A DNA stretch of 64,000 bases from Chloroflexota bacterium (GTDB taxonomy: Bacteria > Chloroflexota > UBA11872 > VXOZ01), in the NCBI GenBank assembly GCA_012270555.1, contig JAAXIC010000018.1:1-64000 (forward strand), written 5' to 3'. A model generated the notes under the pieces. That model saw nothing but the letters and a program-made list of their open reading frames with translations. It did no database searches and had not been told where the DNA came from. Positions 18,899-26,354 of this stretch are shown here, piece after piece. Made by a program: the position numbers and the translations under genes. Numbering within the stretch: the stretch's first letter is position 1; every line of letters starts with the position of its first letter.

Positions 18899-19158
18899 TC
18901 CATCCGGTTTGCTTTGGTTGGGCGATGAACGCTATCCAACGCGGAACCCCCAAGAAACAGACAGAGCGCTTTTCCCCTTGCGAGCGCTACGATTCTTGTG
19001 TATCGTACATAGATGGCGCTTTGCATAAGACAGCGTCAGAACAATAACTGAACCATCTCCGACGTGCTTGTACTTGCTGGCACGCATACGTTGCAGAGCA
19101 CACAGTGGCTTTGGCGGAGAATCCTGAAATTGCTCAATGATTGGAGAGACAGCGGGTA

Positions 19159-20772
19159 ATGCCACAACAACGCTTGCTACTGGAACCGGAAGCGCGCGAA
19201 GCCTTCAAGCGCGGCTTTGACACCATGGCCGACGTGCTCCGGGTCACGCTGGGGCCTAAAGCCCGCACCGTCGCCCTTGAGAGTATGTCCCAGCGCACCG
19301 CGCCGCCTGAGATCATGAATGACGGCGCCACCATCGCGCGCCGCATCGTCGAGTTGCCGGACCGCTTTGAGAACATGGGCGCGATGCTCATTCGCCACCT
19401 CGCCTGGCACGTCGGCGAGCAGGCCGGTGACGGCACCACCACCACCGCCGTGATTGCGCAGTCCCTTCTCGACCAGGCCTACAAGGCCATGGCCGTTGGT
19501 TTCAATCCCATGGCGCTGCGCCGGGGTATCGAGCGCGCGGCCAAGGTGATGCTGGATGAAATCAGCGCCTTGACCGTAACGCTCGAAACGCGAGACGAAA
19601 TCAAGCGCCTGGCGAGTGTCGTCTGCTTGGATGACTACATGGGCGCCCTCATCGGCGAAATCGTCGAGACCCTGGGCCGCGATGCCATCATCGTGGTGGA
19701 AGAATCCCGCAGCATGAATCGCGTGGACCGCGAGTACGTGGAAGGCATGCAGTGGGACAAAGGGTATCTTTCGCCGTATTTCATCACCAATCCGGATCGC
19801 ATGGACTGCACCATCGAGTCGCCGTTCATCCTGGTGACCGACCAACAGCTCAAGCGGGCCGATCAGGTCATTCCGGCGCTGGAAGCAGTGAAGTCGGTCG
19901 GCGGCAAGAGCCTCGTCGTTTTCGCCAACCTCGTGGAAGCCGAAGCCCTCGCCACGTTGGTGGTCAACAAGCAGGAAGGCGAAATTCAAACCCTCGCCAT
20001 CAAGGCGCCGGGTGCCGGCAACCGCATGATGCACATCCTCGAGGACATCGCCATCATGACCGGAGGCACTTTTGTCTCCAGCGATTCCGGAGACTTGACG
20101 GAAGACGTTACCGCGGCCGATCTGGGCCGCGCGCGGCGCATCTGGTGCAACCGCGACTTCTTCACCATCGTGGGCGGCATGGGCAGCGAGGTCGCCATCC
20201 GCCGCCGTATCCAGGAAGTGAAGAAGCTCATCCCCGACGAGAAGAACGAGTTCGAGCGCAACAAGATGCGCGAGCGCATCGGCAAGCTCAGCGGCGGCAT
20301 CGCCATCCTGAAGGTCGGCGGTTTCACCGAAGCCGAAATGAAGGAAAAGAAGCTGCGCGCCGACGATGCCATGCTCGCGGTGCGCGCCGCGCTGGAAGAA
20401 GGCGTGGTGCCCGGCGGCGGTATCGCGTACATTCACGCCGCCAAGGCGCTGCGTAAGCTCAAGGCATCTGACGAGGAAGAGGCGTACGGCATCAGGATGA
20501 TGGCGGAAGCCGCGGAAGCCCCATTGCGCCAGATTCTCCTCAATGGCGGGTACGACCCCGAAGCGATCATCGCCGACATCTACCGTAGACGCTACCCCAC
20601 CGGCTTCGACGTGCACAATGGCAAGTTCGTCAACATGATCAAGGCGGGCATCGTGGACCCGATCAAGGTGGTGCGCGCCTCGCTCACCAAGGGCGCCAGC
20701 GGCGGCGTGATGGGCATGACAACTGAAGCCCTGATCTCCCCGGGTAAGTACGATATGAACGTGAACCCGTAG
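19159..20772 (+). CDS. groEL: Divergent GroEL-family chaperonin
   Basis: 537 residues from the ATG at 19159, preceded by GGAGAG; a TTG at 19141 is an alternative. Chaperonin ATP-site motifs are kept: 'VTLGPKARTVAL', 'NDGATIAR', 'AGDGTTTTAV' and the catalytic-aspartate region 'KLRADDAMLAVRAALEEGVVPGGG'. The apical and equatorial order is normal. Differences from housekeeping GroEL are the N-terminal 'QQRLLLEPEAREAF', 'GPKAR' for 'GPKGR', and a C-terminus ending in 'MNVNP' with no GGM-rich tail. It could be the main GroEL of this lineage or a specialised second copy. Confidence 0.88.
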   Translation: MPQQRLLLEPEAREAFKRGFDTMADVLRVTLGPKARTVALESMSQRTAPPEIMNDGATIARRIVELPDRFENMGAMLIRHLAWHVGEQAGDGTTTTAVIAQSLLDQAYKAMAVGFNPMALRRGIERAAKVMLDEISALTVTLETRDEIKRLASVVCLDDYMGALIGEIVETLGRDAIIVVEESRSMNRVDREYVEGMQWDKGYLSPYFITNPDRMDCTIESPFILVTDQQLKRADQVIPALEAVKSVGGKSLVVFANLVEAEALATLVVNKQEGEIQTLAIKAPGAGNRMMHILEDIAIMTGGTFVSSDSGDLTEDVTAADLGRARRIWCNRDFFTIVGGMGSEVAIRRRIQEVKKLIPDEKNEFERNKMRERIGKLSGGIAILKVGGFTEAEMKEKKLRADDAMLAVRAALEEGVVPGGGIAYIHAAKALRKLKASDEEEAYGIRMMAEAAEAPLRQILLNGGYDPEAIIADIYRRRYPTGFDVHNGKFVNMIKAGIVDPIKVVRASLTKGASGGVMGMTTEALISPGKYDMNVNP

Positions 20773-24454: not shown

Positions 24455-25426
24455 CTACCAGAAATCGACAACGCCCGGCTCGGTGCGGCGCTCCGTTGCC
24501 CCGCCGGCCTGGATGTGCACGATGTCGTCAGTCCAGTCATAGCGGATGTTGGCATTCGTGATTTCGCCCTTGAGCGCCGAGTAACCCGTGCGACCCCCGT
24601 GCGCGATCACCCCGTCACCCACCGGCCGCTTCATTGAGACGTGCCAGTAGGGAATATCGATCGGCCTGATTCGCGACCCGGGTATCTCGGCATAGAACTC
24701 CATGGTGCTGTACACGGGTGTTTCTATAATGGCTTTGCCGTCCTGGAGCGGGAATTTGAGCGAGCCGATCCAGGTGGTCTCATTGGTGCTAAGGTCGGTG
24801 ATCCACACCCCAAACCACGCGCCGTCAGGGTCCTGCGGCGCGGTTTCGTCGGGACCCAGCCGTACGCGATAGTCGCCCGGCCCCCAGGCATACGAACGCC
24901 GCACGCCGATGAAGTCTCCCTCGTGGCCCGATGACTCGGTCCAACCGTCCTCCGGCGCGTAGCGGGCGTTGGCGAGGTCGCGGGTCTCCCAGCGGGAGAA
25001 GATCAGACCCTTGCCGTACGAAAGCGCAACGTCAGGGTATTTCACGTCAGTCTGCACGCCAAAGTAGAACGGCACACCGGAAATCCTGCTATGGCCCAGC
25101 ATCAAGTAGTAGCCGAAGCCACCCCTCACGGGCTGTACGTCGTTGTGGATCGTGAACTCAAACACCAACTCCTCAAGCTCATCAAACCTTCCGCCTTCTG
25201 GGTTTTGCCAGCGAATCCATCCCCACCGGATATATGCCAAGTGCTCCGGCACGTCATGCAACCGGTAGAGGTCTTCGCGCCCCGGAATCTGCGTCGGCGT
25301 GGGCGCCGGCGTAGTGGTCTTCGGAATGCTAGCACTGGCGCCCGCAGTGGATGCAGGGTCCATTTGCGCGCATGACACAAGCAGCAGAAATGCGGAAACG
25401 AGGCAGAAGAGAAGTGTGCGCTTCAA
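24455..25426 (-). CDS. Secreted lipoprotein of unknown function
   Basis: 323 residues starting at a TTG (25426) with GAGAG upstream. A basic-hydrophobic signal ends in the lipobox 'LLLVSC', then comes a Thr/Pro-rich linker. The mature domain is rich in beta strands and aromatic residues ('WGWIRWQNPEGG', 'YYLMLGH', 'WFGVWITDL', 'EFYAEIPG'), suggesting a surface beta-sandwich. No known domain is recognised and no neighbour indicates a role. Confidence 0.65.
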   Translation of the reverse strand: MKRTLLFCLVSAFLLLVSCAQMDPASTAGASASIPKTTTPAPTPTQIPGREDLYRLHDVPEHLAYIRWGWIRWQNPEGGRFDELEELVFEFTIHNDVQPVRGGFGYYLMLGHSRISGVPFYFGVQTDVKYPDVALSYGKGLIFSRWETRDLANARYAPEDGWTESSGHEGDFIGVRRSYAWGPGDYRVRLGPDETAPQDPDGAWFGVWITDLSTNETTWIGSLKFPLQDGKAIIETPVYSTMEFYAEIPGSRIRPIDIPYWHVSMKRPVGDGVIAHGGRTGYSALKGEITNANIRYDWTDDIVHIQAGGATERRTEPGVVDFW

Positions 25427-25518: not shown

Positions 25519-25548
25519 TGGACAGCGCTAACGCCAGTATAGTATGAT
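25519..25548 (+). promoter_or_regulatory. Promoter of the small structured transcription unit
   Basis: TGGACA (25519-25524), an 18-base spacer and TATGAT (25543-25548). A start near 25555 leaves only a few bases before the long Shine-Dalgarno sequence. Confidence 0.55.
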
Positions 25549-25554
25549 GTTGTG

Positions 25555-25700
25555 CAAGAGAAAGGAGGTGATGCCCATGGATGTAAGTTGTAAATCCAGG
25601 GCCGCCTCCGTCAGGTCTCGGTTACCGAGACCACGGAGCGGCCTTAGGGAATTGAAGGAGCGCCAGCGGTGCACAGGCACCGGGCGCTCCTTTTGTTTTC
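25555..25700 (+). ncRNA. Unidentified structured RNA or leader unit
   Basis: A self-contained unit of about 145 bases lies between the promoter and an intrinsic terminator. It opens with AAAGGAGGTGAT (25561-25572), a near-complete match to the 16S anti-Shine-Dalgarno. It then forms a long hairpin: outer arms GGCCGCCTCCGT (25600-25611) and ACGGAGCGGCC (25633-25643), inner arms GGTCTCGG and CCGAGACC around a TTA loop. CCTCC at 25605-25609 could alternatively pair with GGAGG at 25564-25568, which would hide the ribosome site. I do not recognise the family. It may be a regulatory leader, a small RNA, or an mRNA for the 43-residue frame listed separately. Confidence 0.55.
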
Positions 25701-25708
25701 TTGCTTGA
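25577..25708 (+). CDS. Possible 43-residue Arg/Cys-rich peptide
   Basis: The ATG at 25577 lies five bases after an unusually strong Shine-Dalgarno sequence. The frame encodes 'MDVSCKSRAASVRSRLP...' and ends '...GRSFCFLA', with three cysteines and nine arginines. The last codons coincide with the terminator hairpin and T-tract, and the codons follow the RNA stems closely. The frame could therefore be a leader peptide or an accidental reading of a structured RNA. No homologous family is recognised. Confidence 0.35.
   Translation: MDVSCKSRAASVRSRLPRPRSGLRELKERQRCTGTGRSFCFLA
25655..25699 (+). terminator. Intrinsic terminator of the structured unit
   Basis: A ten-base stem AAGGAGCGCC / GGCGCTCCTT (25655-25664 with 25683-25692) encloses a second six-base stem CGGTGC / GCACCG with loop ACAG. 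It is followed by TTGTTTTCTT. This is the strongest intrinsic terminator seen in the window. Confidence 0.8.
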
Positions 25709-25743: not shown

Positions 25744-26130
25744 CTAGAGCCTAGGCAGAGGCCTGACGTGTTCGTTAAGCCATGTTTCCAATGCCGCGTA
25801 ACGAAACAAGCCCGCCTCAAACAACGCCATGAAGTACTCGTAAGCAGCTTCATCCTCGCAGTCAATGTAGTGTCCGTTCATGCGAAGGAATGCATCGGTT
25901 ACGTAGAAGGCGACGCGTTTGTTGCCGTCGACGAATGGATGATTATTGGCAAGACTCTCCATCAACGCTGCTGCCTCTTGCACTACCCCATGGTAGTACC
26001 CCAGTTGTGGACGCATGAGCGCGGATGCTAGTGCAGCTTCATCGCGAATGCCGCGGATCCCGCCGAATTCCGCTATAGACTCAGCGTGTATAGCGATGAC
26101 CTCCCCTAGCGTTGGAAATCTACTCTTCAC
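25744..26130 (-). CDS. doc: Doc/Fic-type death-on-curing toxin
   Basis: 128 residues with the Fic-fold motif 'HPFVDGNKRVAF' (HxFx[DN]xNKR) near the middle and the Doc-like start 'FPTLGEVIAIHAESIAEFGG'. Doc proteins transfer phosphate to elongation factor Tu and stall translation; other Fic proteins transfer AMP. The GTG start overlaps the antitoxin stop by four bases (GTGA), a typical toxin-antitoxin arrangement with the antitoxin first. The composition is AT-richer than that of the flanking genes. Confidence 0.88.
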   Translation of the reverse strand: MKSRFPTLGEVIAIHAESIAEFGGIRGIRDEAALASALMRPQLGYYHGVVQEAAALMESLANNHPFVDGNKRVAFYVTDAFLRMNGHYIDCEDEAAYEYFMALFEAGLFRYAALETWLNEHVRPLPRL

Positions 26131-26354
26131 TTGGCGAGCAACTCACCAAGCCGGCGATTCTTTTCAACGCTAGCTCGGAAGTGAGCCATGACTTCGGCAC
26201 GGGGCTTGTCCTGTCTGCGCGCTTCAATGTAGTCGCGCATGGCATCTTCCAGTATGGCCTGAAAGTGTCGGCCATCCTGCTTGGCTATTGTGCGGAGTGC
26301 AGTCAATAGCTCCGGGTCAGCCTGGCTGGAAAACTTCTGCAATTTGGTCGCCAT
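26127..26354 (-). CDS. Ribbon-helix-helix-like antitoxin, partner of Doc
   Basis: 75 residues. The N-terminal 'QKFSSQADPELLTALRTIAKQDGRHFQAILEDAMRDYIE' fits a ribbon-helix-helix DNA-binding unit, and the charged C-terminal helix probably binds and blocks the toxin. The ATG has AGGAGGG upstream. It would be expected to repress its own promoter. Confidence 0.8.
   Translation of the reverse strand: MATKLQKFSSQADPELLTALRTIAKQDGRHFQAILEDAMRDYIEARRQDKPRAEVMAHFRASVEKNRRLGELLAK

Follow-up and report, generated by a model that had tools for sequence, protein, structure and literature searches.

What does a gene of this size and layout make? At positions 25519-25702 (plus strand) of a 64,000-nucleotide stretch of Chloroflexota DNA (hereafter the window), a promoter, a ribosome site, a tiny open reading frame (ORF), two competing hairpins and a terminator form a small free-standing RNA gene (Table 1), with a predicted length of about 145 bases. 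The flanking genes are both on the minus strand. Upstream is an ORF of 323 aa (24455-25426) that matched nothing in Pfam; downstream is a Fic/Doc-family gene (25744-26130; Pfam Fic, E 1e-13). A small minus-strand ORF (26127-26354) overlaps and precedes the Fic/Doc gene, an arrangement that resembles a doc-type toxin-antitoxin pair. The pair adjoins the RNA gene also in sister genomes L002 and L005, and was not seen in L003 and L006. Elsewhere in the window, the ORF table gives TTG as the start of a chaperonin gene (Cpn60/TCP1 family; 19141-20772, plus strand).

Table 1. Features of the RNA gene, with positions in the window.
Feature	Position	Strand	Remark
Sigma70-type promoter, TGGACA-18-TATGAT	25519..25548	+	Predicted transcription start near 25555
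Extended Shine-Dalgarno, AGAAAGGAGGTGAT	25559..25572	+	14 bases complementary to own 16S 3' tail
Arm1, GGAGGTGATGCCCATGGAT; ribosome site and start codon, 5' side of P1	25564..25582	+	
Tiny ORF, 15 codons, MDVSCKSRAASVRSR, as in sister genomes	25577..25621	+	ATG at 25577
43-codon frame of the original prediction	25577..25708	+	TGA at 25706-25708, beyond terminator T tract
Arm2, ATCCAGGGCCGCCTCCGT; internal anti-Shine-Dalgarno, pairs with arm1 (P1) or arm3 (P2)	25594..25611	+	
Inner hairpin of P2, GGTCTCGG TTA CCGAGACC	25614..25632	+	Folding
Conserved stop position, TTA here, TAA in sisters	25622..25624	+	Alignment and peptides
Arm3, ACGGAGCGGCCTT; 3' side of P2, rival of arm1 for arm2	25633..25645	+	Family covariation
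Intrinsic terminator hairpin with T-rich tail	25655..25702	+	z -6.8

A small RNA gene kept across the Chloroflexota

We found that the RNA of the window folds far better than shuffled sequence. The full transcript folded at -77 kcal/mol (z = -7.2), and none of 200 shuffles did as well. By itself, the two-tier hairpin had a z-score of -6.2 and the terminator hairpin one of -6.8. The terminator is bulged and was missed by a simple terminator scan. The promoter was the one sigma70-like site in the 2.2 kb scanned. A single match is also the level given by shuffled sequence, as would be expected if hairpins and a strong ribosome site had come together by chance in intergenic DNA. That explanation is refuted by the conservation described here, and also by the covariation and controls described below, and we consider it hardly worth entertaining.

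The unit is conserved well beyond the window. A DNA search of 150 relatives found it in five of five sister genomes, at 88-93% identity and kept from promoter to terminator, together with weak ribosome-site matches in other families that share the same layout. The exact 16-base pattern AGGAGGTGATGCCNATG was present in 50 of 400 Chloroflexota genomes, once in nearly each, and the reversed pattern in 1 of 400. A model built from 31 sequences (R1) found the RNA in 96 of the 400 genomes. With a more diverse model, built from 46 sequences (R2), the number was 160 (141/284 good genomes, 89/224 genera), nearly always with one copy. The same model, run on 298 genomes from two other phyla, matched 6, with a best E of 5e-4 and none at E ≤ 1e-4. 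When about 85,000 named species were scanned, 54 stretches were returned, nearly all of them Chloroflexota by name or by sequence, from Chloroflexus, Roseiflexus, Oscillochloris, Viridilinea, Kouleothrix, Herpetosiphonaceae, Ardenticatena and others. The layout was the same in members retrieved later from additional families. There was no convincing match in families f2, f3 and f4 of the same class.

Promoter and terminator recur with the unit. Among 80 curated homologues, a promoter matching at least 9 of 12 positions was found in 66 (5/80 in shuffled sequence), with a preferred spacing to the ribosome site of either 11-15 or 33-53 bases. By a scan that misses bulged terminators such as that of the window, strict terminators were found in 52 of the 80 (2/80 in shuffled sequence). 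These comparisons of sequence confirmed that the RNA gene is real, kept across the Chloroflexota and usually present in single copy. The promoter, hairpin and terminator of the original prediction are borne out by the folding z-scores, the five sister genomes and the recurrence through the phylum.

Some candidate members were rejected. Pattern matches in Mycolicibacterium, Coriobacteriaceae and a Deltaproteobacteria MAG lie inside coding DNA and were scored as chance. A match in a 'Gracilibacteria' MAG (L194) is Chloroflexales-like DNA, and this Candidatus Gracilibacteria bin is probably contaminated or mislabelled. Matches L010, L021 and L070, and R1 matches L119, L128-L130, L134, L135, L137, L138 and L141, were put aside as chance by eye. 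An alignment fitted to R1 (A2) was left unused because opposite-strand matches of the palindromic arms had polluted it.

Several features around the RNA vary among families. A small hairpin, CC-NNNNA-GG, lies 10-20 bases before the ribosome site and has compensatory changes (GCCGTTCAGGC in Roseiflexus); other families have a GCYATCC-like motif there instead. Many Chloroflexales (among L047-L065) have a LysM-type lipoprotein gene directly upstream of the RNA, and in a Herpetosiphon-like genome (L055) the RNA adjoins an rRNA operon. Genome G311 is among the few with two diverged copies (L065, L066), one of which has a release factor 2-like gene nearby.

A ribosome site contested by two folds

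We found that the ribosome site matches the 16S tail over nearly all of its length. The 3' end of 16S rRNA in the same genome reads GGATCACCTCCTTTCTAGGG (L205), and 14 contiguous bases of AGAAAGGAGGTGAT can pair with it. This 3' end was located by pattern; a covariance-model search of the genome missed the 16S gene. The near-full anti-16S match that had been predicted thus holds, with its length corrected from 11 bases to 14. The core of the site, AAGGAGGTGAT, occurs four times in the 3.18-Mb genome, one of these being the complement of the 16S gene, and 1-9 times per genome in the 12 genomes tested. In most homologues arm1 reads GGAGGTGATGCCC, and GGTGATGCC within it is invariant in alignment A1. 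Arm1 is presumably frozen by 16S.

The middle arm can pair on either side. Complementarity of arm1 and arm2 (P1) was significant (p<0.05) in 47 of 49 homologues, and arm2, which lies inside the ORF, is complementary also to arm3, 3' of the stop. In the window, CCTCC at 25605-25609 can pair with GGAGG at 25564-25568 or with arm3. The proposal that CCTCC serves two mutually exclusive folds fits these data, and both pairings seem to be selected.

The two helices carry different signatures. On A1, P2 together with the small 5' hairpin had 88.9% paired cells, and 9 of 14 pairs had double changes. There were 37 double-change cells, a number reached by 0 of 500 shuffles, so the covarying base pairs by which the structure was to be judged are present in P2. 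When the partner was slid out of register as a control, paired cells dropped from 89% to at most 46%. As arm1 is frozen and never varies, P1 shows no double changes. Arm2 does vary, at columns 66, 67, 69, 70 and 72 of A1, almost only from A to G or from C to T, changes that retain wobble pairs with arm1. Across 28 non-sister sequences, the ten core pairs of P1 had one unpaired cell in 280; this count leaves out three sister sequences, in which the arms are out of register. Judged by this pairing and wobble-only change, P1 appears to be maintained by selection. Of the three arms, the ribosome arm is frozen, the middle one changes only by wobble and the third covaries, an evolutionary pattern that marks a bistable ribosome site with unusual clarity. 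Ardenticatena has the same arm2 RNA, but its ORF crosses it in another frame (Trp-Ala-Ser-Pro rather than Gly-Ile-Thr), and arm2 is therefore conserved as RNA.

We modeled how the ribosome site changes as the transcript grows. Each RNA was folded twice, once ending six bases short of arm3 and once with arm3 included, and shuffled arm3 was the control. Addition of arm3 raised the accessibility of AGGAGGTGATGCC by a mean of 0.24, compared to 0.004 for shuffled arm3 (Wilcoxon p 6e-10, a statistic that ignores kinship among the homologues). The gain exceeded 0.2 in 27 of 43 homologues and in 8 of 1075 shuffled arms; in the other 16, arm3 exposed arm1 by 0.2 or less in the fold model. For the window RNA, accessibility of the ribosome site rose from 0.17 to 0.53 once arm3 was added. 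With a fixed extension of 36 bases past the stop, the direction of change was mixed because the cut fell within the terminator. Based on the comparisons and the fold model, we regard it as nearly certain that this is a gated RNA gene.

This folding logic is the same as that of the type I toxin mRNA AapA3 of Helicobacter (PMC6733600), and the Chloroflexota RNA might likewise be a toxin mRNA whose ribosome site is masked by a metastable hairpin during transcription. However, a full-length type I mRNA is closed, and the Chloroflexota RNA is open. The encoded peptides, mostly 12-24 residues long, are not conserved and are mildly hydrophilic on average (mean hydropathy -0.22, with 12 of 79 above 0.5), and they do not resemble hydrophobic toxins. 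A toxin mRNA is therefore very improbable.

A tiny ORF that appears to be read for its own sake

The ORF is retained in the family. Of 110 distinct homologues, 79 have an ORF of 14-15 codons, and 104 start it with ATG. In the sister genomes it has 15 codons and ends at a TAA in the loop of the P2 hairpin. The window copy has one extra base in the P2 loop relative to its five sisters, which places TTA at the stop position and lets the frame read through. Because the TGA of the resulting 43-codon frame lies beyond the T tract, a terminated transcript would have no in-frame stop. The 43-residue peptide once proposed is thus not a conserved product. The loss of the stop may mean that the ORF is dispensable in some genomes, or that this copy is decaying or misassembled.

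If the 14-15 residue peptide were the product, and the hairpins controlled its synthesis, the gene would be a microprotein gene. The start, the strong ribosome site and the stop are retained, and Chloroflexales peptides have a recurrent M-S-x-S...G-I/V-T/A...R-stop motif. However, the codons do not evolve as expected for a selected peptide. In 37 disjoint close pairs, differences outside arm2 were spread evenly over codon positions 1, 2 and 3 (54/60/53), and 87 of 118 changed codons were nonsynonymous and 31 synonymous. The Gly-Ile-Thr of the motif is imposed by arm2 and is gone where the frame differs, and the window copy lacks a stop. We consider a microprotein gene improbable. A conserved peptide with a function, as in dual-function sRNAs of the SR1/SgrS type, is likewise not indicated, as there is no synonymous bias outside arm2.

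Other choices in the ORF also concern the RNA and its reading. Of 182 serine codons close to the start, 160 are AGT, which points to an RNA-level choice of an unstructured loop. The ORF stops with TAG or TAA in 104 of 109 homologues and with TGA in 5, compared to TGA in 165 of 385 (43%) long open frames of the same loci, a contrast that is inflated by kinship. CTAG is common at the stop, and nearly all stops are readable by release factor 1. Since the codons have no synonymous bias, translation rather than the peptide looks to be under selection; the ORF is apparently selected for being read, not for what it encodes. The suggestion that the RNA itself is the product appears to be right, with no codon-level selection on the peptide and with arm2 conserved as RNA.

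We found no gene that the RNA might control in cis. Leader-peptide attenuators (erm-type and amino-acid operon leaders) have a short ORF, a strong ribosome site and overlapping, mutually exclusive hairpins. The Chloroflexota RNA has the same short-ORF and hairpin layout, with three competing arms, and it could be a ribosome-mediated leader that acts on a downstream gene by read-through. It differs from these leaders in having no conserved downstream gene and a terminator that is separate from the arms and independent of the switch. The nearest long downstream ORF was on the same strand at 35 homologue loci and on the opposite strand at 31, no downstream protein cluster common to different families was found, and neighbors were not conserved across families. 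The genes that follow in the window lie on the opposite strand. The likeness to riboswitches and attenuators that had been proposed therefore extends to the folding and not to a downstream gene to control, and an attenuator is very unlikely.

A possible ribosome sensor and its relatives

We think it somewhat probable, overall, that the gene makes a ribosome-engaging regulatory RNA whose ribosome site is gated by transcription. In the comparisons and the fold model, arm2 of the incomplete RNA pairs with arm1 and hides the ribosome site; with arm3 made, arm2 switches to arm3 and the ribosome site becomes free. A ribosome could then initiate, translate into P2 and open it, and terminate in the P2 loop, such that ribosome traffic itself would decide which helix re-forms. 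Engaging ribosomes would be the function, and the RNA would be neither an mRNA for a useful peptide nor a leader of a neighboring gene. Its action might be in trans, where it would sense or titrate either free 30S subunits or translation termination. Since neither a gene in cis nor a selected peptide is apparent, the simplest function is that of a trans-acting ribosome sensor or titrator, although we propose the ribosome-sensing role only tentatively and would not be surprised if it proved wrong.

Alternatively, the RNA could be a trans-acting base-pairing sRNA, with arms that are freed by translation or by a partner and then pair with mRNAs, and with an ORF that drives or protects the RNA. 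A free-standing gene with its own promoter and terminator, GC-rich arms and no selection on a peptide would all fit. However, the most sequence-conserved element across the phylum is the anti-16S region, there is no other common single-stranded seed except the AGT-rich loop, and both C-rich arms are normally paired. We consider a base-pairing sRNA unlikely, and prefer a ribosome-engaging RNA.

Searches against known families placed the Chloroflexota RNA in none of them. At both the gathering and permissive thresholds, Rfam returned nothing above noise for the window locus and the Chloroflexota loci scanned (CsrC, at 15 bits with a cut-off of 61; Leu_leader; mir families). The locus therefore lacks the match to a known aptamer family that a riboswitch would be expected to show, and the absence of a described family, on which the novelty of the original prediction depended, was upheld at the window. 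A nearly single-copy RNA gene that is present in a large share of a phylum and yet absent from Rfam is rare. In the literature we found no account of the RNA in Chloroflexota, the nearest being Chloroflexi-1 and the rdhA motif of Dehalococcoides. Chloroflexi-1 (RF01698) is a candidate structured RNA from the same phylum, reported solely from Chloroflexus aggregans (PMC2864571), and differs in that Rfam gave no match at the RNA in a Chloroflexus-like locus (L034).

In AapA3/IsoA3 of Helicobacter, a system with comparable folding, a transient hairpin hides the ribosome site during transcription and gives way to a more stable structure in the full transcript (PMC6733600). The final fold closes the ribosome site in AapA3 and opens it in the Chloroflexota RNA, which also lacks a conserved or strongly hydrophobic peptide.

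The closest likeness that we found is to Ms_IGR-5 (RF02471) of Actinomycetota. In 150 Actinomycetota genomes, R2 had three matches, two of which are the unit (E 5e-4 and 2e-3), with AAGGAGGTGGTCC, an AGT-containing ORF of 14-15 codons and an EV..R end. A pattern search of 307 Actinomycetota genomes found the unit in 23, with no downstream gene that is conserved in general, and R2 matches most of these 23 pattern-selected loci, weakly. Two of the pattern-selected loci match RF02471 at 167.9 and 49.9 bits (gathering cut-off, 45 bits). RF02471 was not matched by the window, by 14 Chloroflexota loci or in closer scans of two Chloroflexota loci. Its cut-off was reached by only 2 of the 20 Actinomycetota cousins searched (loci among L244-L266). 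Probably, then, RF02471 describes just a small part of a wider family.

Ms_IGR-5 and the Chloroflexota RNA have the same layout: a free-standing sRNA with a long ribosome site followed by a short ORF (AAGGAGGTGGTCC, then 12-15 codons). The Rfam consensus includes a ribosome site as well as a frame of 12 codons that ends CGC-UAG, and in the Ms_IGR-5 group the ORF often ends E-V-x-x-R with CGC-TAG. The two RNAs differ in their 3' part, which has the greater length in Actinomycetota, and P1 and P2, as defined in Chloroflexota, were not significant in the Actinomycetota group. In view of these differences, common ancestry of the two RNAs is at most probable. Ms_IGR-5 is transcribed in Streptomyces (PMC8079986, PMC8780764), was validated by RNA-seq in S. 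lividans (PMC8079986), and has homologues whose reads are ribosome-protected in both M. abscessus and M. smegmatis (PMC4974804). If the two RNAs are related, as is probable, these reports lend independent support to the reading of a ribosome-engaging RNA.

It is conceivable, and we offer it as a speculation, that an ancient RNA common to Chloroflexota and Actinomycetota, including the mycobacterial Ms_IGR-5, serves as a stand-alone ribosome sensor or titrator. Its site, as long as the 16S tail allows, would be freed only when the transcript is complete; its mini-ORF would be indifferent to the peptide and would nearly always end at a stop read by RF1; and its own fold would read out rates of initiation or termination. 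The likely link to Ms_IGR-5 gives a testable mechanism for a known mycobacterial and streptomycete sRNA that has been reported to be ribosome-bound.
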